Source: Colwelliaceae bacterium
GTDB taxonomy: Bacteria; Pseudomonadota; Gammaproteobacteria; Enterobacterales; Alteromonadaceae
Assembly (NCBI GenBank): GCA_023954655.1
Contig: JAGSHH010000011.1
Location: 1-32,757, forward strand
Direction of reading: 5' to 3'
DNA length: 32,757 nt
The notes beneath the pieces were generated by a model. The model made no database searches. It saw nothing but the letters and a program-made list of their open reading frames with translations, and was not told where the DNA came from. Shown one piece after another: positions 8,324 through 19,378 of this stretch. The stretch's first letter is position 1, and the number at the start of each line of letters is the position of its first letter. The position numbers were made by a program, and so were the translations under genes.

Positions 8324-8364
8324 TGTAGTGCCTCATCCATATTTAAATTTCTGTTGAGGCACTA

Positions 8365-8402
8365 TCTAAATAGATTAACTCGTGTTCGTCAATCTATTTA
8401 GA
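8365..8402. terminator. 12-bp stem-loop after the S15 peptidase gene
   Basis: TCTAAATAGATT (8365-8376) and AATCTATTTAGA (8391-8402) pair perfectly around a 14-base loop. It starts 19 bases beyond the stop of the minus-strand peptidase gene. No T-tract follows on the minus strand, so termination strength is doubtful. Confidence 0.5.
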
Positions 8403-8421
8403 GTTTTCTAATAAGCGACAG

Positions 8422-10770
8422 TTATTGCTTCCATGGTGTTAAAGGAAGCTTTATTTCACTGTCGTTAAACCACTTTATGATTAATGGCTCCCCTGCATCA
8501 GCAATGGTTTCAGAATTTACATCTTTACCTGAGCCCAAATTAACTTGTGCATCAACGTTTTTATTTACATTGAGAACTATCACTAACCGACTGCCCTTTT
8601 CGATGAGTTTTGCGGTCATACGGTTGTTAGTTATCGGCACTATTGTTTTTTGATTAGGTACCAATAACTTACGTTGACTCATATCATGAGCAAAGCTTGC
8701 TCGGCTAATATATCTATTGAGGTGGAAAACACTACCGTCCGCCTTCATTTCATAAAAATTGTAACCTATGTCGACATCTTTCTTATTAACTGCAATAGAA
8801 AACTGGCCGGTAATTGCACCGGCAAACTGTTGTGGTGTACTCATCGGTTTGGTTACGAAAATTATCCCATTAGGTTCGTTTAATTTATCTTCAATAATAT
8901 TCCAATGGTTTTCATTATGCTGAGTAATACGGTCAGCCATATCAATAGTTTGATTGAATGAACTGATGTTTTTATCTTGGTTTTCACTCAGTAAAAAGTA
9001 ACTCTCGCTATCTTTGTGGTCGCCTTTTTGTTTACTTAAGTAAAAGCTTGTTGATTGATTATTTAATAGTTCAAAAGAATTATGATGTTGCCAAGTATTA
9101 CTCCCCATTAGTTGATAGTTTACCTTGTTTTGCACAAGCTTCGGTTTGGCTTTTTGAAAGAGAACATGATCAAACCATTCAAAAGTAATTTCTTCAGTGT
9201 CTTTTTCTAGAGCAACCTCGTCAAGTTTATAATTACTGTGATGTGAACGTGGTATACCTTGGGCTGTGCCATGGTTATATGGGCCAATTAATAGTGAATG
9301 ATTAGCGTTTTTATTGTATTTATGATGGCGAGTTAAAAAGTCGACAGCTGAAATTTGGCCGCCGTCAAAATATCCTGTTATTGATAATACTGGAATATTA
9401 ATACGCGCATAGTCTTTTTGATACGGTAACATTTTTTGATAAAACTCATCGTAACTTGGGTGATCTAACAGTCTTTGAAACCAAGGGTTTTCTTTACCAT
9501 CTATTTTATCTAGCTCTCTTACAGATCCTCCACTTTCAAACAATGCTTTATTACGTTTTTCTGCTTTTTGCCAATCCGCATAAACACTGTTGTCCATAGT
9601 GTTATTGTTAGTTACTAGGAAAGACCATTCATAATTGGCGGTCAAAACAATATTGTTTTCATAGGGTAAGCCAGTAATTGGGCTAGCCGCAGCATAAGGT
9701 ACAATGGTTTTAAGTGCGGGATGCATATATTTTGCAGCTGCCCATTGCGTAAAACCATTGTAACTACCACCGTACATGGCAACTTGACCATCACTCCATT
9801 CTTGTTTAGTGATCCAATCAATAACAGCCGTAGCATCTTTTCCTTCATGTTCCCAAGGTACAATCGTATTTGTACTTAAACGCTTTCCTCTAGAATTAGC
9901 AACTACACCAATATAACCATGCGCCGCTGCATGAATAGCCGTTCTAATATGTGATTTTTCGTCGGCGTAAATGGTAAATTGAAAAGCAGCCGCACGTTTT
10001 GTCTTGTCATTTTTTCGCCTAACAATGGTTGCCGTTAATTCGATGCCTTCATCAGTTGTGATCAATACTTCAGGTTCAATTTTATATCGTTTATTATTTT
10101 CTTTCTTAATGGCTTTTTGACTAACAGGAATTACTTTAGCAATAACATGATAGAGCTGAGTATTCACAATAAGATTGATGGCTTGTGCCGTTGTAAGTTC
10201 TTCTAAGGATTTATAGTTTCTAAAAATATTCGCTACATAATTTTCAGCGTTAAGTACCGACCAACCAAGCGCTGAACTTACTTGAAATAACTTTTCATCT
10301 GACATCGTGCTAAACAGTTGGCTTAACTTTGTGGTGAGTAGCAATGTAAGATTTTTCTTATCAGAAGTTTGAAGATCGAGCATAGCTTGACTATGCAAGG
10401 TGTAGTGATAATTATTTAGCGCATTTGTTTGTTTATCTATCTCTGATATTAAATGTTGATATTCTGCGCGTATCGATAACAAAGCAGTTTTGTTAAACAT
10501 TGACTGCTGTGCAATTTCTTCAGTAGATAGTTGTTTAGCGATCATTTTAAGTTCTGTGAGAAACACTTTAGAATTTAATAGTTGTCGAATTTCTTCACCA
10601 TTGCCTAACTTTAATTGAGCTAAAGCTTTAGGTGTTGTAAAGGTTTGAACTTTAATTTCTTCAGCCTTTACTCTGTCAGAAAATAATATGACAAAACAAA
10701 TGATGTAAAATGACAAAAGTGAAGCGAATAGTGGTGTATTTAGGCGCTGAAAATATCCTTTGAATTTCAT
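8422..10770 (-). CDS. Secreted S15-family peptidase / CocE-NonD hydrolase
   Basis: A 782-residue protein with an N-terminal hydrophobic signal (about 13-36, ending VKA). Residues 40-225 form an additional, mainly helical region of unknown role. From about 232 there is an alpha/beta-hydrolase of the S15 (X-Pro dipeptidyl-peptidase) and CocE type: the nucleophile in YGGSYNGF (Ser336), Asp469 in GYFDGG and His500 in GPYNHG. The last 200 or so residues correspond to the C-terminal jelly-roll domain of this group. Family members release X-Pro dipeptides or cleave esters and amides; which applies here is open. The gene is divergent from the membrane-tethered propeller regulator at 10928, an arrangement suggesting joint regulation. 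Confidence 0.9.
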   Translation of the reverse strand: MKFKGYFQRLNTPLFASLLSFYIICFVILFSDRVKAEEIKVQTFTTPKALAQLKLGNGEEIRQLLNSKVFLTELKMIAKQLSTEEIAQQSMFNKTALLSIRAEYQHLISEIDKQTNALNNYHYTLHSQAMLDLQTSDKKNLTLLLTTKLSQLFSTMSDEKLFQVSSALGWSVLNAENYVANIFRNYKSLEELTTAQAINLIVNTQLYHVIAKVIPVSQKAIKKENNKRYKIEPEVLITTDEGIELTATIVRRKNDKTKRAAAFQFTIYADEKSHIRTAIHAAAHGYIGVVANSRGKRLSTNTIVPWEHEGKDATAVIDWITKQEWSDGQVAMYGGSYNGFTQWAAAKYMHPALKTIVPYAAASPITGLPYENNIVLTANYEWSFLVTNNNTMDNSVYADWQKAEKRNKALFESGGSVRELDKIDGKENPWFQRLLDHPSYDEFYQKMLPYQKDYARINIPVLSITGYFDGGQISAVDFLTRHHKYNKNANHSLLIGPYNHGTAQGIPRSHHSNYKLDEVALEKDTEEITFEWFDHVLFQKAKPKLVQNKVNYQLMGSNTWQHHNSFELLNNQSTSFYLSKQKGDHKDSESYFLLSENQDKNISSFNQTIDMADRITQHNENHWNIIEDKLNEPNGIIFVTKPMSTPQQFAGAITGQFSIAVNKKDVDIGYNFYEMKADGSVFHLNRYISRASFAHDMSQRKLLVPNQKTIVPITNNRMTAKLIEKGSRLVIVLNVNKNVDAQVNLGSGKDVNSETIADAGEPLIIKWFNDSEIKLPLTPWKQ

Positions 10771-10927
10771 GAGGTAACCCTTGATTTTAAAATAGCTAAT
10801 TGAACAAAATTGATGGCAGCTAGCTTAAAATTATTAATAAAAATTGTAGTGATAATACGGTGACTTTTTATGACTTTTGATGACCAGCCGTCAGGAATAT
10901 GCTACTTTCCCGCTACATACCTAACTT
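10771..10927. promoter_or_regulatory. Divergent promoter region, S15 peptidase / propeller regulator
   Basis: These 157 bases must contain both start regions. A short near-repeat, TTTTATGA then CTTTTGATGA, sits at about 10866-10882 and could be a binding site of the winged-helix regulator, but this is a guess. No strong sigma-70 pair stands out. Confidence 0.35.
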
Positions 10928-13027
10928 GTGAGCATTAACATGCGTTGGCAAATAGCTGAATATATTTTTTGTGATCAGCAACAAACTCTATTATCTGAAG
11001 GAAAAAGTCAGCAATTAGAGCCGATGATGGTTGAATTGTTGAGTTACTTTTGCAAAAACGTTGATCAAATTATTAGTAAAGATCAATTAATAGAACAAGT
11101 TTGGTTAGGACGTATTGTTAGTGATAATGCTGTTAGTAAATTAATCACAAAACTGCGTAAAGCTTTTTCTGATGATGCTAAACAACCTAAATTTATATCT
11201 ACCTTCCCTAAGAAAGGTTATAAATTTATTGCATTGGTGGAGCTTATACCATCTGAAAATTATGAGCCTCAGATTTTGAGTCGGCAGGTTACAATTCCTA
11301 TTCAAGCCTCTAAAGCAAAAAAATTTTATTACCCAATAATTTCACTTTTGCTTTTATTATCTATTTTTCTAGGCGTTTATTTGCAAGATAACCAAGTAGA
11401 GACAAGCTTACTTAACTATGCGAAAGCACTTACGGCAGAATCAGGAAATGAGCTTTTTCCTGCGGTTTCTCCTGATGGCACACGAATGTCTTATATGTCA
11501 GCCAGAGAAGATCGGATGCACTTGCTTGTCAAAAATATTAATGATGAGCGCACGATAGAAATTAACCATGAAGAAGGTGTGGGTGTTGGGCCTGCAAACT
11601 GGAGCTTTGACGGTCGTTTGCTGGTTTACTTAGTGGCGACACCCAATCGCTGCCAATATTTTATTCGTGAAATTAATGACTTAGAAGTTGGTGAAGCTCA
11701 GTTAATTCATAACTGTCCCGCGGGGAGTTATGGTGCAATTGCCTTTACTCATGACAATAACCGTTTAATTTTTACGGAAAGTGAAGGGGGAAATAGCCCA
11801 TATTCACTTTTTGAAATTGATTTAAGAACAGATAAGAAAACACGCTTAACTCAGCCAGAATTATTTTTAGGTGGAAACAGTCAATTTGATATGCATCCAT
11901 CGGAAAATAAAATACTGATTTCATCACCCGATAAGCAACAATGGGAAGGGTTCTATTCACTTGACCTAGAAACGGATGAACTGTCTTTATTGTTCAAACA
12001 AGATGCTTATATTTGTTGTGGAATATGGAGTCACGATGGTGAAAGAGTTGTCTTGATGGGAGAGCATCCAGCTTATCAATTGCTGAGTTATGATCTTGCA
12101 GGTGAAGACATGAGGATTATTTATTCAGGGAGTCGTCAAATTAATCGACCTACTCGCCATACGAATGGCAAAGATTACATGTTTTCATCAGGTCAGCAAA
12201 ATAATAATATTCATGTATATGACTATAACGATAATACTAATATTGTAATCGCCGATTCTTCAGTTGATGATCGACTCGCCACTTTTTCGCATCATATTAA
12301 TAACTCTGATAAAAATTCTGCTAAGCAAAGTATTGCATACATTAGTTTAACCACAGGTAATGAAGAAGTGTGGTTAACAGATTTGGAAGGTAAAAAGCGT
12401 TCTAAATTAACTAATTTTAATGACAGTCGTCATTATGTTGATCTGCAATGGTCTCCTAATGGGACTCTTTTAATGGCATTGACACTCAATGAAATCCATC
12501 TTATTGATACATTAACTGGAGAGTTTAAACGATTGAAGTTGCCGCAAGCTGAAATCAGGGGTGTCTCATTTAAAGATAATGAAACACTTTCATTTAGTCG
12601 AAAATCTCAAGGTGCATGGCAGGTTTACTTTTATCAGATAAACTCCGACATTGTCACTCTTTATGAAAGTAAATGGCAATATGTGCAATTTGCAGCAGAA
12701 GAACAAAATACCTTATGGTTGGATCAAAATGATCAACTTTATTGGGGTAGCAATCAGCAAATGGTAAATAACACAGAGTTACAGAAAATTGATTTGTTGT
12801 CCGGACGTTTATTCAACTTGAAAAAAAGAAATCAAAATTGGTACTGGTCTAATAGCAAAACAAACTATTCATTGATGCGTTATTCAGCATTAAGTGAAGT
12901 TACAGAGTCTGTTATCCCGAGCAATGTCTTTCAGTTTGATGTACAAGTGAGCTATATTCTTTACGGAAAAAGCTTAACCTCAAATAAGGATGTTTATCAA
13001 ACGATGTCTACACAGAACGCGCAGTGA
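10928..13027 (+). CDS. CadC-like membrane-tethered winged-helix regulator with TolB-type beta-propeller
   Basis: A 699-residue one-component regulator. Residues 5-103 are an OmpR/PhoB-type winged helix (Trans_reg_C), including SDNAVSKLITKLRKAF and FPKKGYKF. A single transmembrane helix lies at about 134-152. The rest (about 165-690), placed in the periplasm by this topology, consists of repeated WD40/TolB-like blades such as LFPAVSPDGTRMSYMS and WSPNGTLLMALT. It probably senses a periplasmic ligand and regulates transcription from the membrane, as CadC and ToxR do. The start is uncertain: GTG at 10928 or ATG at 10940, neither with a good ribosome-binding site; the winged helix begins right after either. 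The divergent S15 peptidase is the likely target. Confidence 0.88.
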   Translation: MSINMRWQIAEYIFCDQQQTLLSEGKSQQLEPMMVELLSYFCKNVDQIISKDQLIEQVWLGRIVSDNAVSKLITKLRKAFSDDAKQPKFISTFPKKGYKFIALVELIPSENYEPQILSRQVTIPIQASKAKKFYYPIISLLLLLSIFLGVYLQDNQVETSLLNYAKALTAESGNELFPAVSPDGTRMSYMSAREDRMHLLVKNINDERTIEINHEEGVGVGPANWSFDGRLLVYLVATPNRCQYFIREINDLEVGEAQLIHNCPAGSYGAIAFTHDNNRLIFTESEGGNSPYSLFEIDLRTDKKTRLTQPELFLGGNSQFDMHPSENKILISSPDKQQWEGFYSLDLETDELSLLFKQDAYICCGIWSHDGERVVLMGEHPAYQLLSYDLAGEDMRIIYSGSRQINRPTRHTNGKDYMFSSGQQNNNIHVYDYNDNTNIVIADSSVDDRLATFSHHINNSDKNSAKQSIAYISLTTGNEEVWLTDLEGKKRSKLTNFNDSRHYVDLQWSPNGTLLMALTLNEIHLIDTLTGEFKRLKLPQAEIRGVSFKDNETLSFSRKSQGAWQVYFYQINSDIVTLYESKWQYVQFAAEEQNTLWLDQNDQLYWGSNQQMVNNTELQKIDLLSGRLFNLKKRNQNWYWSNSKTNYSLMRYSALSEVTESVIPSNVFQFDVQVSYILYGKSLTSNKDVYQTMSTQNAQ

Positions 13028-13034
13028 ATATTTT

Positions 13035-13048
13035 TTGATTTACATCAA
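13035..13048 (+). promoter_or_regulatory. FNR-type operator upstream of the TonB receptor operon
   Basis: TTGATTTACATCAA matches both half-sites of the FNR/Anr consensus TTGAT-N4-ATCAA exactly. A -10-like GGATAACT at about 13067-13074 would place a transcription start near 13081, about 40 bases from the centre of the site, the usual class II activator position. It lies just after the stop of the propeller regulator and about 110 bases before the receptor start. This predicts oxygen- or redox-dependent activation by an FNR/EtrA homologue. Confidence 0.7.
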
Positions 13049-13158
13049 TTGTTTACTTAATTAAATGGATAACTGCGACATTTAGTCACACTGCAAATAA
13101 AGATAATTCATCTACCATATTGGCACTTTTAAAATTACACTTAAAATGCAAAGCCGTT

Positions 13159-15267
13159 ATGAAAAAAACTTTAAAGTTATCTATTCTCGCTCTTTTTGTC
13201 GGTCATTATTGTCATTCTCTTTCCGCTGAAACGTTATCTCCTGAAGGAGATGTCATTGTTGATGATTTTGAAAGGATCACTATAACTTCGAATCGTAAAG
13301 AGTCGCTCGATACAGACCTTGCTATGTCGGTCCATGGTATTGGGAAAGATGAATTAGACATTGATAACGGTCAACATGTTGCAGAATCTTTAAATAGTAT
13401 TTCTGGTGTGTTGATTGACCAACTTTCTGGTGGCCAAGGACATAAAGCGGCGATTAGAATGCCAATGAATACCAGTGGGTATTACTTATATTTGCAAGAC
13501 AATATTCCTCTGCAATCCCCTGCTTTTTTTAATCATAATGCTTTATGGTGGTCGAGTTTTAATTCGAATGTTGCACGTATGGAAGTACTAAAAGGTGCTG
13601 GTACAGCACTTTATGGTTCAGGAGCTGTCGCAGCAACGGTGAATATATTATCTGAAGATGTTGCCAAAGCGCCTGAAACAAGCCTTGATGCGATGTTAGG
13701 TGAAGACGAATATTCAAAGGTACAAATCAGCCATAGTAATCGTATTTCGGATACACAAGGTTTTCGTGTTTCTGCTTCATTTCTCAATAATGAAGGCTGG
13801 CGAGACCATACTGGCTCAAAGAGAGCTGAAGTAACTATTCGTCATGAGCTCGAGTTAAGTGATAATGAACGTTTAGTGACCTCTTTTGTAATGTCAGATC
13901 TAGAACAAGAGATGGCGACAAGTTTGTCTGAGGAGTTATATAAAAATGATAAAACCAACTCAGGCCTTTCTGATGAAGTATTAGCGAGTGATCCTTTACG
14001 CAAAACAGAATACATGCGCATTTCAACTCAATGGGATAAAACCAATGGCAATAATTATTATTCTTTGATTCCTTATTATCGAGTACGCACTAATGATTAT
14101 ACTGCTACTTGGAATCAAAATATGCCTAAAGTTGAGTCTGAAGTGAAAACGTTAGGTTTATTAGCTTTAGCTAATTTTGAGCATGAAAATGATAGTGAAA
14201 CAACGATTGGTTTTGATATTGAATTTACTGAAGGCGATCAACTTTCTTATCAACCGCTCGATTTCACAACAACCGGTTGGGGAGCAGATACCTTTGTTAA
14301 AGGAGAAAAGTTTTATGATGATACTACTCAATACATCGGTTTTTCTCCATATGTGCAACACAAACAGAAATTGAGTGAGAATATCGATGTAACGTTAGGT
14401 GCCCGTTATGATTATGCAAAATATGAATTTAAAAATCATTTGGATGTCTTTGGCGATATTGGCCATGGAAAGTTAAGCCTTGAAAATAAAGATGATGACT
14501 TTAGCCATTTAAGCCCTAAAGCTAGCTTAAATTATCATTTAGGTGACGATAGTAGCGTTTATTTACGATATGCGAATAGTTTTCGTTTGCCAACAGCTGG
14601 CAGTTTATATCACTTAACCACGAAAGATGATGGAAATGCTAAAGCGGTAGATCCCGAAGTATCTGATACTTATGAGCTTGGTTATAAAGTAAACCTAGAA
14701 ACCGTGAATTTTGACTTTGCCATTTATTATATGGATGTAGATGATGGCATTGTTCATGCCTATAACGATCTTGGTCAACGGTATTTAACTAATGCGAGTC
14801 GAGTCATTCATAAAGGTTTTGAAGCGGCTATGTTGTGGCAAATAAGTGAACAATTTAATATCACTACTGCTTATAGCCAAGCCAAACATGAATTTGATCA
14901 ACATGAACAATACTCTGGCAACGAAATGACAGCAGCGCCTGAATACATAGCAAATGTTCGCCTTCGTTTTATGCCTTCCTTTTTACCCGGCTTTTCAAGC
15001 ATGCTAGAAATGCAATCCATTGGTGAATACTGGTTAGATGATGCTAATAGCCAAGACGCAGATGGAAATGATCGTATCGAAGACGGTTATACAGTTGTAA
15101 ATTTTAAAGCGCGTTATCAGATTAATGAAAAGTTAGCATTGCATGCTCGCTTATTAAATGTTGCTGATAATGAATATGTACAAGAAGGATCTTATCGTTA
15201 TGGTAAAACAAAATATTCTCCTGGTGCACCAAGAACACTTTATGTTGGGCTAAATTACCAATGGTAA
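13159..15267 (+). CDS. TonB-dependent outer-membrane receptor
   Basis: A 702-residue receptor from the ATG at 13159. That start opens a clean signal peptide (MKKTLKLS... ending LSA); an in-frame TTG 39 bases earlier would spoil it. A short region DDFERITIT (35-43) may be the TonB box, followed by the plug (about 50-165, with VARMEVLKGAGTALYGSGA) and a barrel of about 22 strands ending in aromatic Trp, as outer-membrane proteins do. It imports a scarce ligand using TonB energy; siderophore-type and metal-type receptors look alike at this level. Downstream genes encode an Asp-box protein, a thioredoxin and a redox two-component system, with an FNR site upstream, so a metal-related substrate is plausible but unproven. 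Confidence 0.9.
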   Translation: MKKTLKLSILALFVGHYCHSLSAETLSPEGDVIVDDFERITITSNRKESLDTDLAMSVHGIGKDELDIDNGQHVAESLNSISGVLIDQLSGGQGHKAAIRMPMNTSGYYLYLQDNIPLQSPAFFNHNALWWSSFNSNVARMEVLKGAGTALYGSGAVAATVNILSEDVAKAPETSLDAMLGEDEYSKVQISHSNRISDTQGFRVSASFLNNEGWRDHTGSKRAEVTIRHELELSDNERLVTSFVMSDLEQEMATSLSEELYKNDKTNSGLSDEVLASDPLRKTEYMRISTQWDKTNGNNYYSLIPYYRVRTNDYTATWNQNMPKVESEVKTLGLLALANFEHENDSETTIGFDIEFTEGDQLSYQPLDFTTTGWGADTFVKGEKFYDDTTQYIGFSPYVQHKQKLSENIDVTLGARYDYAKYEFKNHLDVFGDIGHGKLSLENKDDDFSHLSPKASLNYHLGDDSSVYLRYANSFRLPTAGSLYHLTTKDDGNAKAVDPEVSDTYELGYKVNLETVNFDFAIYYMDVDDGIVHAYNDLGQRYLTNASRVIHKGFEAAMLWQISEQFNITTAYSQAKHEFDQHEQYSGNEMTAAPEYIANVRLRFMPSFLPGFSSMLEMQSIGEYWLDDANSQDADGNDRIEDGYTVVNFKARYQINEKLALHARLLNVADNEYVQEGSYRYGKTKYSPGAPRTLYVGLNYQW

Positions 15268-15278
15268 GAGGATTTATG

Positions 15279-16514
15279 ATGAAATATATAAGCGTTAATT
15301 TGTTAAACACATCAATTTTAATAGGGTTACTGTTAATTAGCTCAGTGACTAATGCACAACATAATCATCAAGCTATTATGAAAAAAAAACCAGCAGCGAT
15401 TAAATGTCTAAATTTTGATATTAAATGTGCTAAAACAGTAACTTCTGCTTTCTCACCTAATGGAGATTTATGGAGGTTATGGGCATTAGAGCAAAAAATG
15501 TTTTTCCAAATTTCAAAAGATAATGGCCAAACATTTTCACCATCACAGCAAGTGAATATTCCACTTGAGAAAATATCTGCAAGAAATGAAAATCGACCAA
15601 AAATTGCTTTTGATAAATATGGTGGTGTTTATTTATCTTGGGCATCGCCACTTGAGAAAAAATATACAGCAAATGTGCGCTTTAGTTATTCGGAAGATTA
15701 TGGAAAGTCGTTTTCAAAACCGGTAACTGTTAATAATGATAACTTGCTGACAGGGCATAGTTTTAACGAGATGCAGGTTAACGAGAATGGAGATGTAAAA
15801 ATCGTTTGGCTTGATAGTCGCTTGTCATATCAGTTAAAAAAACAAGGTAAAAAAGCTAATGGTTCGGCTTTGTATTACGCTAAAGCTAATCTTAGAGAAG
15901 GGATAGTTGAGTTTAAAAACGAACAGTTAGCCAATGAAACCTGTGTTTGTTGTCGAATTGCAATGGATGTTAACAAAAAGGAAGAATTAGCAATATTTTG
16001 GCGTCATATTTACGGTGATAATATTCGAGAATTTGCGTTGCTGACCTTAGATAATGAGATGAAACGGGAGTCAATTCAAATTAGTAATGATCATTGGAAG
16101 ATAGATGGATGCCCTCACCAAGGGGGAGGAATCAGTATTGATCAGGAAAATAGATACCATCTTGTGTGGTTTAATCAAGGAGATAAAGGTAAAGGTATTT
16201 TTTATGCATCATCTAAAGATCAAGGTAAAACGTTAACTAAACCATTATCAGTAGGCGATTTCAAAGCACAAGCAGCTCATCCACATATTATGCAAAATAA
16301 CAATGTTGTTGATATTGTATGGACGCAATTTAATGGTATAGAGCATCAATTATGGCACCAGCAGTCAATTGATAACGGTAAAACTTTTGCAAGAGCTAAG
16401 GAAGTATCGCAAGCAAGCTCAGGTTCGGATCGACCATTCATTATTAAAAAAGGTGGCCAAAACTATGTCAGCTGGCAAAGGCCTAAGCAAGGACATTTAG
16501 TGAAAGCATTATGA
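15279..16514 (+). CDS. Secreted Asp-box (BNR/sialidase-like) beta-propeller protein with CxCC motif
   Basis: A 411-residue exported protein (signal peptide to about residue 26, VTNA|Q). Four Asp-box repeats are clear: SKDNGQTF (79-86), SEDYGKSF (138-145), SKDQGKTL (312-319) and SIDNGKTF (363-370), indicating a sialidase-like propeller. I do not see the arginine triad context of true sialidases, so glycosidase activity is doubtful. Instead there are cysteines in TCVCC (222, 224, 225) and IDGCPHQGG (278), plus Cys43 and Cys50 and an N-terminal HNH, suggesting metal or redox chemistry. Of the in-frame starts at 15261, 15276 and 15279, the last is best spaced from AGAGGA. It lies 11 bases after the receptor stop and overlaps the thioredoxin gene by 4 bases. 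Confidence 0.8.
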   Translation: MKYISVNLLNTSILIGLLLISSVTNAQHNHQAIMKKKPAAIKCLNFDIKCAKTVTSAFSPNGDLWRLWALEQKMFFQISKDNGQTFSPSQQVNIPLEKISARNENRPKIAFDKYGGVYLSWASPLEKKYTANVRFSYSEDYGKSFSKPVTVNNDNLLTGHSFNEMQVNENGDVKIVWLDSRLSYQLKKQGKKANGSALYYAKANLREGIVEFKNEQLANETCVCCRIAMDVNKKEELAIFWRHIYGDNIREFALLTLDNEMKRESIQISNDHWKIDGCPHQGGGISIDQENRYHLVWFNQGDKGKGIFYASSKDQGKTLTKPLSVGDFKAQAAHPHIMQNNNVVDIVWTQFNGIEHQLWHQQSIDNGKTFARAKEVSQASSGSDRPFIIKKGGQNYVSWQRPKQGHLVKAL

Positions 16515-16984
16515 ACTCGATGAAAGTTTTGTTCATAGTTGTAGCCCTTTTCTTTAGTGATAATGCGAGCGCTGAGTCAAAAGTATTTTCGGCAAGTACC
16601 TTTAAAGAATTAAAACAGCAAAACTTAGGTAAGCAATGGTTAATGATTTTATGGTCTGTAGATTGCCCTGCTTGTTTCAAAGAGTTGGCGTTAATCCAGA
16701 AAATACGAGCAATTAATTCAGATATAAATGTCGTAATCATTAATGCTGATGATAACGATGAAGTAGAAGATGAACGTCAAAAAGTGATTTCATCATACGA
16801 ATTGTCTTCGTTGCAAAACTATTATTTTGCAGATGGTGAAGGAGATCAAGCCCGTTTTATTATTGATAGCACATGGTATGGTGAATTACCTCGTAGTTAT
16901 TTTATCGAAAGCAATGGAAAGTTTCATGGTAAAAGTGGTTTGGTCAATGAAAAATTAGTCAGAAAATGGTTGATAGAAAACTAA
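16511..16984 (+). CDS. Periplasmic TlpA-like thioredoxin
   Basis: A 157-residue protein with a signal peptide (about 1-21, ending ASA) and a thioredoxin fold carrying the redox motif CPAC (Cys52, Cys55) in LWSVDCPACFKEL. A Pro in the GELPRSYFI segment is at the expected cis-proline position. TlpA/ResA/DsbE-type proteins reduce specific disulfides in the periplasm, for example during cytochrome c or copper-centre assembly. Its start overlaps the stop of the Asp-box gene (ATGA), and that neighbour has a CxCC motif, so I infer that it may be the redox partner of those cysteines. A general thiol reductase role remains possible. Confidence 0.85.
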   Translation: MNSMKVLFIVVALFFSDNASAESKVFSASTFKELKQQNLGKQWLMILWSVDCPACFKELALIQKIRAINSDINVVIINADDNDEVEDERQKVISSYELSSLQNYYFADGEGDQARFIIDSTWYGELPRSYFIESNGKFHGKSGLVNEKLVRKWLIEN

Positions 16985-17041
16985 GCGGATTGGTATAAAT
17001 ATGGGTATGATATTTAGCAATATTTTTCAAACTACTTATTC

Positions 17042-18292
17042 ATGATCTTATTCGACTTTAAAACGATGGCAGTTATTCAGCGACTGTTCCTTCTTAGAAC
17101 TTTAGCGATTGCCATTCAGCTGGCGACGGTTTTAATCGTTTATTATGTGATGTCTTTGGAGATATCACTTTTTCCGTTATTGATTGTGATAGTTGTTGAA
17201 TCTGTCTTTCATATTTTCAGTATTTATATTTTTAAAAACCGAGAGGCGGGTAATGCAGCGATTGTTTGTCAATTAATTGCAGACATTATTTTCTTAAGTA
17301 TTTTATTGTCATTAAGTGGTGGTGCAACCAACGCTTTTGTTTCGTTATTATTATTGCCTATTATTATTGCCGCAGTGAGTTTACCTTCACGTTATTTATC
17401 GATAATTTCATTATCCGCTATTAGCTCATATAGTATTTTATTATTTAGAATGCCAGAGCACACGATGCATCAAATGGATATGAGTAATCACTTTTTTGCG
17501 ATGTGGGCTAACTTTTTGCTATCTGTTTTGGTAGTCACTATTGTGGTTGGAGCAATGGCGCGTATTATCACAAATAGAGAGCAGTCTATAGCGAAACAAA
17601 GAGAAGAACAATTAAGAAGTGAGCAGTTACTTTCTCTAGGGTTAGCTTCAGCACAGGTTACTCACCAATTAGCGACACCTTTGGCAAATATTCAATTACT
17701 GTTTGATGAATTATTAGAGGACCATCCTGAGCATGTTGCTGTGCAATCTATGCGGCATCCATTAGAACAATGCCGTAATCAACTTGGCTACTTTAGAAAC
17801 CTTGCCGCTTCTATCAGGGAAGGAAATACTCAAAATATTACGGTTGATGAATTGCTTGAACAATTTAACGATAGTTTACAATTACACTTTCCAGAACAAT
17901 CTATAGATGTTATTCAAAACCAAGAAATTCACGCTAGTATTCACTCAGATGCAATGCTAATTTCCGCACTACTAAACTTAGTTCAAAATGCTATTCGAGC
18001 AAATAAAGAAAATAATGAAAAAGCCCTGACACTAACAGTTTATTGTTGCCAGCAATATTTGCACCTTGTTTTAAGAGATTTTGGTACCGGCATTGATTCA
18101 AACATTACTAAAGCTCAACAAGATTCCTTAGGCGAAAAATTAGTTGAAAGTAGTAATGGTTTAGGTATGGCAATATTGTTATCAAATACAACATTTAATC
18201 GTTTACAGGGAAGTTTGAAAATATCAAATCACCCGGTAAAAGGTAGTCTTGCACATGTGAAATTAGCATTACTATCATCAAGTAATAACTAA
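17042..18292 (+). CDS. RegB/PrrB-like redox sensor histidine kinase
   Basis: A 416-residue sensor kinase. About six transmembrane helices fill residues 15-172. GGATNAF (93-99) corresponds to the quinone-binding GGxxNPF heptapeptide of RegB, with Ala in place of Pro. The H-box is QVTHQLATPLA (His208), followed by EQCRNQL with Cys244 where RegB has its redox-active cysteine. N-box (LLNLVQNAIRAN) and G-boxes (DFGTGI, NGLGMAI) follow. RegB homologues respond to the quinone pool and control respiratory genes. The start at 17042 lacks a clear ribosome-binding site; ATG at 17066 is an alternative. It lies 57 bases after the thioredoxin gene and 8 bases before its response regulator. Confidence 0.87.
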   Translation: MILFDFKTMAVIQRLFLLRTLAIAIQLATVLIVYYVMSLEISLFPLLIVIVVESVFHIFSIYIFKNREAGNAAIVCQLIADIIFLSILLSLSGGATNAFVSLLLLPIIIAAVSLPSRYLSIISLSAISSYSILLFRMPEHTMHQMDMSNHFFAMWANFLLSVLVVTIVVGAMARIITNREQSIAKQREEQLRSEQLLSLGLASAQVTHQLATPLANIQLLFDELLEDHPEHVAVQSMRHPLEQCRNQLGYFRNLAASIREGNTQNITVDELLEQFNDSLQLHFPEQSIDVIQNQEIHASIHSDAMLISALLNLVQNAIRANKENNEKALTLTVYCCQQYLHLVLRDFGTGIDSNITKAQQDSLGEKLVESSNGLGMAILLSNTTFNRLQGSLKISNHPVKGSLAHVKLALLSSSNN

Positions 18293-18300
18293 AGGTAAGT

Positions 18301-18840
18301 ATGAAACTATTGATCGTTGAAGATGATACTGCATTTGCTGCAACGTTAGTTAGGCGTTTATCTAAGCACGGCTTTGATTGTCAAGAAAGGCACCAGGCAG
18401 ATGAAGCTTTACATGCATGCCATCAATTTAGGCCAGACTATTTAATACTAGATATGAAACTTGCAGCTGATAATGGCTTAATGTTGATAAAACCAATTCG
18501 AGCACTTTTACCTGATATCCGCATCGTTTTATTGACAGGTTTCGCTAGTATTGCCACTGCCGTCGAAGCTATTCAGATGGGAGCAAATGATTATTTAGCA
18601 AAGCCTGTTGATACTCAAATGTTATTAAAAGCCTTGAAAGGAGAAAACTCAGAACCAAATACTTTAAAGGTTGAAACTGATATTGAAAGCAAGCCTATGT
18701 CTCCAGAGAGACTAGAATGGGAACATATAAATCAAGTACTTAGTAGTAATGATGGCAATGTTTCTGAAACCGCTCGCCAATTAGGCATGCATCGACGAAC
18801 TCTACAACGAAAGTTACAACGAAAACCAGTGATTAAGTAA
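18301..18840 (+). CDS. RegA/PrrA-like response regulator
   Basis: A 179-residue response regulator. The receiver occupies about 1-112 with acidic pocket Asp8/Asp9, phosphorylation site Asp51 (LILDMKL), Thr79 and Lys101. A Fis-type helix-turn-helix lies at about 153-175 (NVSETARQLGMHRRTLQRKL). This short receiver-plus-Fis-HTH architecture is that of RegA/PrrA/ActR/RoxR, the partners of RegB-type kinases. AAGG five bases before the ATG supports the start. Likely targets include its own operon and respiratory genes; this is inferred from the family. Confidence 0.9.
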   Translation: MKLLIVEDDTAFAATLVRRLSKHGFDCQERHQADEALHACHQFRPDYLILDMKLAADNGLMLIKPIRALLPDIRIVLLTGFASIATAVEAIQMGANDYLAKPVDTQMLLKALKGENSEPNTLKVETDIESKPMSPERLEWEHINQVLSSNDGNVSETARQLGMHRRTLQRKLQRKPVIK

Positions 18841-18859: not shown

Positions 18860-19378
18860 TTATCGATTTCGAATCACTTCACAAGCAAATTTATCCCATA
18901 AAGGACTACCATATCCTTGGTATAAATCATGGTTGATTTCAGTTGTAAGTTTTTCAACATTGCTAGAAATATTGAGTGATAATAAATATTCCTTTTTTAC
19001 CACAATAAATTGTTTTTTATAGGGTAAAAGCCAACTTTTATTTTCTTGCATTGATAACGCTAATTTCGCCTCTTCATAATCTGAAAACCATAAATTAACA
19101 AATGTATTACATGCATGATTATTAAAAAACGTTCCCATATCTGGCATTGATTTCAACGATTGTTTACCTGAGAGAACGATTTGAGCATTATGCCAATTTT
19201 CAAAACCAAGTTGTCGAGAAATAATTAACTGGCAATGCTTTAATTGGATGTCGCTTGCCGAAACTACCTGAATACTTTTCAATGAAATTTTGAGTTTTGT
19301 TAAAATATTCGGATCAGCTTTAACTGCTTTACATAATTTTTTGGCTTGTATTTTTGCTTCGTTTAACGCTAATTCCAT
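18860..19378 (-). CDS. Uncharacterised two-part protein
   Basis: A 172-residue soluble protein; no signal peptide or transmembrane helix. Residues 1-70 are helical and contain LIISRQLGFENWHNAQ, resembling the helical ARELGFxSWP-type segment seen at the N-terminus of some ankyrin-repeat and other small bacterial proteins. Residues 80-170 contain MGTFFN, WFSDYEEAKLAL and LLPYKKQFIVVKKEY, which look like a conserved domain, but I cannot name the family with confidence. GAGGG lies 7 bases before the ATG, inside the end of a possible 60-codon gene that overlaps this start by 10 bases. Convergent with the RegA-like gene. Confidence 0.7.
   Translation of the reverse strand: MELALNEAKIQAKKLCKAVKADPNILTKLKISLKSIQVVSASDIQLKHCQLIISRQLGFENWHNAQIVLSGKQSLKSMPDMGTFFNNHACNTFVNLWFSDYEEAKLALSMQENKSWLLPYKKQFIVVKKEYLLSLNISSNVEKLTTEINHDLYQGYGSPLWDKFACEVIRNR

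Follow-up and report, generated by a model that had tools for sequence, protein, structure and literature searches.

Positions 1 to 32,757 of contig JAGSHH010000011.1 (forward strand) from the Colwelliaceae bacterium assembly GCA_023954655.1, the whole stretch that we analysed and call the window, contain same-strand genes for a TonB-dependent receptor, a secreted beta-propeller protein with a CxCC motif, a TlpA-type thioredoxin and a two-component pair resembling RegB/RegA. We think it probable that the first three genes form a copper-acquisition module that serves nitrous oxide (N2O) reductase and further cuproenzymes, is controlled jointly by FNR and RegA and probably reads through into regBA. 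The evidence from promoters and that from gene neighbourhoods agree on what would be a low-oxygen, redox-gated supply of copper. A preliminary description of the region had seen in all five genes one self-regulating system for importing a ligand, perhaps copper; copper import and redox control are supported by what follows, but the five genes are not a single conserved system.

The gene for the putative copper-chelate receptor starts at an ATG and occupies 13159–15267 (the reading frame opens at a TTG at 13120), followed by the propeller gene, read from its second ATG (15279–16514), the thioredoxin gene (16511–16984), regB (17042–18292) and regA (18301–18840). The spacings of 11, −4 (an overlap), 57 and 8 bases are as first described, and so is the lack of terminators between the genes: none of the six terminator-like sites found between 12800 and 19500 (shuffle mean 3.8) lies in any gap. 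The receptor matches PF00593 (6.6e-44) and PF07715 (5.6e-11), and three of its histidines are conserved in 33/33 close relatives; we assign it to no named copper family. The thioredoxin has a redoxin-type match below the Pfam cut-off and scores best against a DsbE/CcmG-type NCBIfam model, its DsbE/ResA matches being weak and all below cut-offs; its CPAC motif (codons 16664–16675), a conserved GELPRSYF stretch and secretion judged by eye fit a periplasmic protein of the TlpA/ResA/DsbE kind. The RegB and RegA models are the top NCBIfam matches of the last two proteins (NF033792, 1.6e-38, 132.6 bits with a cut-off of 350; NF033791, 6.6e-49, 166.2 bits with a cut-off of 250), the regulator has a Fis-type helix-turn-helix (PF02954) and the kinase–regulator pairing is present, so the pair is RegB/RegA-like.

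Conserved core and copper neighbours

A search for the propeller in 196 genomes of the window's family gave a match in 15, the window's included. Named genome contigs gave eight loci, two of which (L017 and L018) duplicate L027 and L026, the loci of genomes G058 and G010, and were left out. An alignment-based search matched 30 of 369 genomes of the class and 16 of 398 of the phylum; in GC-rich loci the propeller and PCuAC genes were taken from raw open reading frames. Among 68 loci, 51 have a TlpA-type gene adjoining the propeller gene, 54 have upstream of it, on the same strand, a gene the size of a receptor (by eye a sulfatase in one case at least, L036) and 44 have both, some of the misses being contig ends. 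The order receptor–propeller–TlpA is kept in 18/18 close loci uncut by a contig end (the window, L016 and L019–L034), and the propellers of L035 and L036, only 23–28% identical, still adjoin a CxxC thioredoxin. RegBA, in contrast, adjoins in just 13 of the 68 loci, so that of the five-gene order first proposed as one unit the receptor, propeller and TlpA genes recur in relatives and the regulatory pair mostly does not: the conserved core is smaller than the five-gene set. A model of the window's receptor scores above 300 bits in 33 of 53 loci and below 75 bits in most others. The receptor family thus changes between loci; the constant pair is the propeller and the thioredoxin.

Copper as the cargo, first raised as a possibility, is supported by copper genes that neighbour the module in independent lineages. 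PCuAC-type genes, assigned by motif, lie on the same strand behind the propeller gene in nine loci of four families (L112–L118, L121 and L124), with a TlpA gene in between in eight (none was called in L124). The PCuAC protein of L117 has a Pfam match of 2.1e-41, and the receptor gene of that locus is preceded by a member of DUF2946, the family of the copper-responsive CruR in the portion of PMC9426467 consulted. In L112 the PCuAC gene is followed by a DUF1775 gene and a CopC-CopD fusion, and in L104 SCO1 lies four genes upstream. A second receptor gene stands directly upstream in L020–L022 and L029–L031; for those of L020 (3.3e-44), L022 (4.5e-46) and L030 (1.5e-51) the best match is the TonB-copper model, below its cut-off. 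TonB or ExbBD genes, named by eye, accompany several modules, and the window's own genome holds two COX1-type genes (contigs C36 and C48, the latter also matching ccoN) and nosZ (C92). Distant relatives of the propeller occur in 63 plasmid records, mostly annotated as "sialidase family protein", a label that may mislead, since in the two records that were opened (L131 and L132, of 63) both relatives carry CxCC and lie among copper genes. Such a CxCC relative stands in a row of copper oxidase, plastocyanin and TolC genes in a Sulfitobacter plasmid record, and another adjoins CopC, with amoAB nearby, in one from Methylomagnum.

N2O reductase is the main known biological sink of nitrous oxide, a greenhouse gas, and the module does co-occur with it: NosZ is found in 8/12 genomes with a close module against 27/184 others (p 1.4e-4), or in 7/8 against 6/44 genera, both figures being confounded by taxonomy and the match being loose inside genera. 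The same check with cbb3 oxidase was uninformative, since the enzyme is near universal (191/196 genomes).

Some other genes near these loci may be recorded here. A gene for an MbnH/MauG-type di-haem enzyme lies near the module in L028 (441–1361). In Colwellia-type loci a class D beta-lactamase-like gene adjoins the gene for an OprC/NosA-like copper receptor (the OprC type of TIGR01778, also named NosA), as in L030 (15321–16196; 3.7e-62, below the cut-off of its family) and, judged by eye, in L157 (3963–7166, on contig C182 of the window's own genome). Past the module in L088 (5689–8661) are genes for a TonB (by eye), a Met-rich PF13557 protein, a small protein containing a single CxxCH and another TlpA-like protein.

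Predicted FNR sites and a putative RegA-type box

The proposed redox control is supported by a predicted FNR site and a putative RegA-type box at the module promoter. The FNR-type site TTGATTTACATCAA (13035–13048, forward strand) fits TTGAT-N4-ATCAA with the spacer TTAC and no mismatch and, as first described, stands before the receptor gene; it is the sole perfect match in the window, where ten sites have at most one mismatch (shuffle mean 4.1). Scanning from 300 bases upstream to 60 bases inside the receptor start, we found perfect sites in 8 of 53 related loci, at least one of which (L036 again) by eye has no receptor at this place, against 4/623 control genes drawn from the same loci. For low-GC loci the figures are 8/36 and 2/296 (p 3.5e-7), though p values are optimistic here because the loci are related and not independent. 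The four-base spacers of the perfect sites differ between loci.

A second element, GCGACA-N4-GTC[A/G]C, was spotted on inspection and lies 26 bp past the FNR site of the window (GCGACATTTAGTCAC, 13075–13089, forward strand). The box GCGACA-N4-GTCAC is present without mismatch in 17/53 loci against 4/617 controls and with one mismatch in 12/53 against 16/617, counts that are partly circular as the pattern was drawn from ten of the counted loci; perfect boxes also occur in other families (L085, L088, L092 and L100). The RegR box given in the part of PMC5506826 that was available, which stresses that RegA-type sites are degenerate, is GNGRCRTTNNGNCGC; it fits with one mismatch in the window and with none in L019, L027, L093 and L110. 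Upstream scans misplace the start in some long reading frames (L114 and L120) and in L084, where tonB intervenes. L120 has a box with one mismatch, and L084, when rescanned, a perfect box, which in this divergent locus stands before regB.

In the window's own genome the box is found in four places and a reversed control in none. Three are the module, nosR and the gene for an OprC/NosA-like receptor (67% identical to that of L030), whose promoter combines FNR site and box like the module's; the fourth (C65:34584) was discounted because it is a terminator hairpin with convergent genes on either side. A composite pattern, FNR-N12-40-box, with the gap range set after seeing the own-genome sites, finds nine places in the 196 genomes and none when reversed: five modules (G000, G108, G149, G154 and G193, a count partly circular as the pattern came from some of the counted loci), three OprC/NosA-like receptor genes (G000, G002 and G058) and the nosR of one nosRZ (G000). 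The search thus added the receptor genes of G002 and G058, and no place besides module, copper-receptor gene and nosR.

Promoters of nosR allow the box to be compared with the presence of RegA, taken as a match at E 1e-30 or better, in 34 of 35 genomes with NosZ (G124 has no nosR in the stretch examined). A box with at most one mismatch precedes nosR in 25 of 28 genomes with RegA and in one of six without it (p 0.001). The difference is also seen inside genera: in g8 five genomes with RegA have the box and G091, without RegA, does not, and in g52 the box (one mismatch) is present in G193, which has RegA, and missing from G053 and G087, which lack RegA but keep an FNR site (one and zero mismatches). 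In g15, where the best nosR match is 52–55% identical, there is no box with or without RegA. As far as sequences can tell, this comparison at nosR favours RegA as the protein that would bind the box. At module promoters a tally by hand, with the box defined as zero mismatches to GCGACANNNNGNCRC and six named loci of unknown RegA status excluded, gives RegA in 24/25 box-bearing and 14/22 boxless genomes (p 0.006); L084 enters with its rescanned box, and L028, which has one mismatch, counts as boxless.

Several observations weigh against a copper module under RegA control. The best solved relative of the window's receptor is PqqU/YncD (2.2e-19) and no copper receptor, and TIGR01778 is absent from its 21 matches up to E 0.01. 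Sulfatase-like and pectinase-like genes lie directly upstream of the distant thioredoxin–propeller pair of L036 (11174–16350), with TRAP-transporter-like genes also before the pair, which by eye looks like glycan utilisation, and L028 has sulfatase-like and glycosidase-like genes nearby (by eye). N2O reductase would not be the sole client, as 4/12 close-module genomes have no NosZ match. The box precedes nosR in G101 and the module in G074, both without a RegA match; it is missing before nosR in G032, G075 and G096, all with RegA (the upstream stretch of G096 is short), and from the PCuAC-bearing loci L112–L118, L121 and L124, though f216 and G683 have RegA. Both Reg proteins of the window score below the NCBIfam equivalog cut-offs, that for RegA being reached by 0/196 genomes of the family, and in place of the quinone heptad of RegB, GGXXNPF, which 9/13 module-linked RegBs carry, the RegB of the window and two congeners has GGATNAF.

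The first of these points also bears on what is carried, as the receptor could import another scarce ligand such as a ferric siderophore, pyrroloquinoline quinone (PQQ) or haem, with the propeller and TlpA processing the ligand or its carrier and the copper neighbours reflecting a shared respiratory need. The receptor's profile matches, which are siderophore-, haemin- and PqqU-like, would fit this, as would the finding, in the accessible part of PMC13274454, that the genes under RegA control in Methylomonas include those for a TonB receptor and tonB, grouped with iron uptake. However, no recurrent iron, haem or PQQ gene was recognised among the neighbours clustered, scanned and read, which were not exhaustive, whereas copper genes recur in independent families; the propeller and TlpA stay where the receptor family varies, and the partners in the FNR-plus-box promoter are a copper-receptor gene and nosRZ. 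We therefore regard another ligand as unlikely.

The resident RegB/RegA pair

RegA is found in 113 of the 196 family genomes, as a single copy in nearly all (one has two matches), and the window's regA is the single match detected in its genome, which is 80.6% complete. RegA is present in 12/12 genomes that carry a full close propeller, compared to 101/184 others (p 0.001; confounded by taxonomy). Where the pair adjoins the module it does so in several arrangements: downstream on the same strand (the window, L016 and L024) or convergent (L028 and L096), and upstream on the same strand (L032, L034, L100 and L120) or divergent (L084, L088, L094 and L110), weak two-component matches beside L087, L089, L106, L107, L111, L117, L118 and L124 having been left out of the count. 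On the propeller tree (66 rows) this adjacency needs at least ten changes, seven of them forced by starred branches. In the tree of RegB (29 rows) the window's sequence falls with those of its module-free congeners G001 and G002, those of L016/L024 and L028 group with genomes without adjacency, and those of L032/L034 with module-linked RegBs of other families. These groupings indicate that the module was set beside a resident RegBA at least three times in the family, or was lost repeatedly.

By the RegB tree and the comparison with its congeners, the window's RegBA is a vertically inherited pair with the module lying in front. Both congeners have RegBA at the same place without a module, and homology by blastn ends at 8324/8400 and restarts at 16995/16997, 45–47 bases before regB. 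From these breakpoints and the gene order, the segment missing between the same flanks is 8401–16994, containing the genes for an S15 peptidase, a CadC-like regulator, the receptor, the propeller and TlpA. What is retained (16995–17041, forward strand) is a residual regB leader with a −10-like box, TATGAT (17006–17011), common to both congeners, now with the end of tlpA upstream. Outside the genus, the closest relatives by RegB (L142 and L144) also have no module beside RegBA. The RegBs of G001 and G002 are nearer to each other than either is to the window's, so that the module may have been lost in the congeners instead of gained in the window's lineage. The upstream regions of resident regB genes (the window's and 16 others in the family) have no box at up to one mismatch; in the window, therefore, only the module promoter would bring regBA under the box.

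The link to RegBA might then be a positional accident, the module lying beside a housekeeping regulator that does not control it, as the rarity of the adjacency and the vertical inheritance of the window's copy would allow. But the adjacency changes too often on the propeller tree, and in too many orientations, to favour this, the box stands at module promoters also where RegBA lies elsewhere, with the excess of RegA given above, and the nosR comparison supports RegA as its binder; we consider an accident rather improbable.

Of the genes in the segment missing from the congeners, that at 10928–13027 encodes the CadC-like regulator, of CadC/ToxR type and fused to a TolB-like propeller, and is divergent from the gene at 8425–10770 for the S15 peptidase, an X-Pro peptidase. 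Adjoining regA on the reverse strand (18860–19378) is a gene for a 172-residue protein without a Pfam match, a relative of which (52% identity) adjoins the module in L019 (4745–5275).

The propeller as a putative copper port

The propeller protein matches BNR/Asp-box repeats in Pfam (PF02012, 2.5e-5, below the cut-off) and has neither an NCBIfam match nor a credible match in a sequence search of the PDB. An AlphaFold (AF2) model from nine sequences, with a predicted local distance difference test score of 81 and a predicted template modelling (TM) score of 0.81, best matches 5mum in Foldseek (E 8.7e-11, TM score 0.59, 10% identity), the top matches being glycoside hydrolases, sialidases and ulvan/rhamnose-glucuronate lyases. 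The CxCC motif (CVCC in the window, codons 15942–15953) is kept in all listed homologues but the 109-residue fragment L037, and the [GA]CP pattern (GCPHQGG, with the second conserved cysteine, codons 16107–16127) is missed only in L037, L093, L119, L126 and L130. The invariant positions hold mostly Cys, Trp, Gly, Asp and Arg around CxCC and GCP. The predicted strands 227–231 and 283–287 come directly after CxCC (222–225) and C278, respectively, and we interpret each as the innermost strand of its blade, the two blades being consecutive. CxCC and C278 should thus face each other near the propeller axis, probably as one cysteine pocket, which H160, H280 and H334, invariant across the nine closest sequences, may join.

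Given its fold, the propeller might be a genuine carbohydrate-active enzyme, releasing a glycan ligand for the receptor or modifying it. Its structural matches and three Asp boxes are in line with this, as are the glycan-type genes near L036 and L028. However, identity to these structures is about 10%, the FRIP motif of GH33 sialidases is absent (no [FY]R[ILV]P), the invariant residues centre on CxCC and GCP, a TlpA partner adjoins in most loci and glycan-type neighbours hardly recur, clustering giving a sulfatase-like cluster in three loci and no further recurrence; such an enzyme is very unlikely. A role in thiol redox or cytochrome c maturation, with the thioredoxin as a CcmG/ResA relative and the propeller as its client, would suit the thioredoxin's best-scoring model, but no ccm genes were recognised among the neighbours examined (no systematic search was made) and the receptor and PCuAC/CopCD partners do not fit, which makes it the most improbable of the readings considered.

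If the module serves copper acquisition, as we favour, the receptor would import a copper chelate with energy from TonB, and the propeller's cysteine pocket (CxCC and [GA]CP) would take the copper. Like TlpA acting on ScoI and CoxB, the thioredoxin would maintain the cysteines of the pocket in the reduced state, which would allow the metal to be held as Cu(I) and handed to chaperones or to cuproenzymes such as N2O reductase and the haem-copper oxidases. As transcription would start behind the FNR site and RegA-type box, the module is predicted to be expressed when oxygen is low or the quinone pool reduced, along with nosRZ and the OprC/NosA-like copper receptor. Because it ends ten bases before the residual regB leader, read-through would probably make RegBA part of its own regulon, closing a loop. 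A bolder version, possible though we stop short of calling it probable, sees in the CxCC propeller the founder of a new class of copper-handling proteins, in which a catalytically dead sialidase fold would have become a redox-charged port for copper. It would strip copper from imported chelates and be recharged by its dedicated TlpA, and in the course of evolution it would have joined up with several TonB receptors unrelated to one another; in gammaproteobacteria it would belong to a compact FNR and RegA regulon with nosRZ, and its insertion before the sole regBA would have made a self-amplifying circuit.

The module is probably a new variant of TonB-dependent copper uptake. The preliminary description knew of no named system with this gene set, and this holds within our literature searches, which gave no description of a propeller or sialidase combined with TlpA, TonB, copper and RegBA (subscription papers were mostly outside reach). 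Closest in kind are the CrtA/BfrG operons (CruR-CrtA-CrpH) of Bordetella and Pseudomonas, copper TonB transporters known to us from parts of PMC12914433, PMC9426467 and PMC13038864. In these parts they likewise have a TonB receptor that takes up chelated copper for haem-copper oxidases, and neighbours such as DUF2946 (CruR), TonB/ExbBD, PCuAC and ScoI. By gene content they differ, in that CrtA loci mostly include the PepSY_TM protein CrpH, a domain without a match among the eight window proteins scanned with Pfam, whereas in the module the receptor is followed by the CxCC propeller and TlpA; the terms propeller, sialidase and thioredoxin are absent from the available text of PMC12914433. OprC/NosA-type receptors are related by the FNR-plus-box promoter of such a gene in the window's genome and by adjoining the module in Colwellia-type loci, though the window's receptor does not match their family. 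The pcu membrane protein presumably resembles YcnJ/CopCD. The pcuABCDE operon of Bradyrhizobium encodes a TonB receptor, a PCuAC-type chaperone, a DUF1775 protein and that membrane protein, and L112 has the last three types after TlpA, but the propeller and TlpA go unmentioned for the operon in the portions of PMC8424229 and PMC12617631 at hand. In the TlpA–ScoI–CoxB system a periplasmic thioredoxin keeps copper-binding cysteines reduced (PMC13038864, in part); by analogy, its client in the module would instead be the propeller. Finally, RegSR of Bradyrhizobium controls nos and copCAB, its RegA-family regulator binding the nosR promoter, though no TonB–propeller–TlpA target is mentioned in the excerpts of PMC4064962 available.

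How Gram-negative bacteria import copper for respiratory enzymes is poorly known, and the module offers a gene set that is widespread and has a constant part open to testing, the propeller and the thioredoxin. One promoter architecture would link copper supply to N2O reductase, and the RegA box offers a way to read RegA regulons in Alteromonadales. The findings also suggest that some proteins annotated as sialidases are misnamed. If the propeller does found a new class, many "sialidase family proteins" in the databases would be copper proteins, and a global redox regulator would have become a self-amplifying circuit coupled to copper import.

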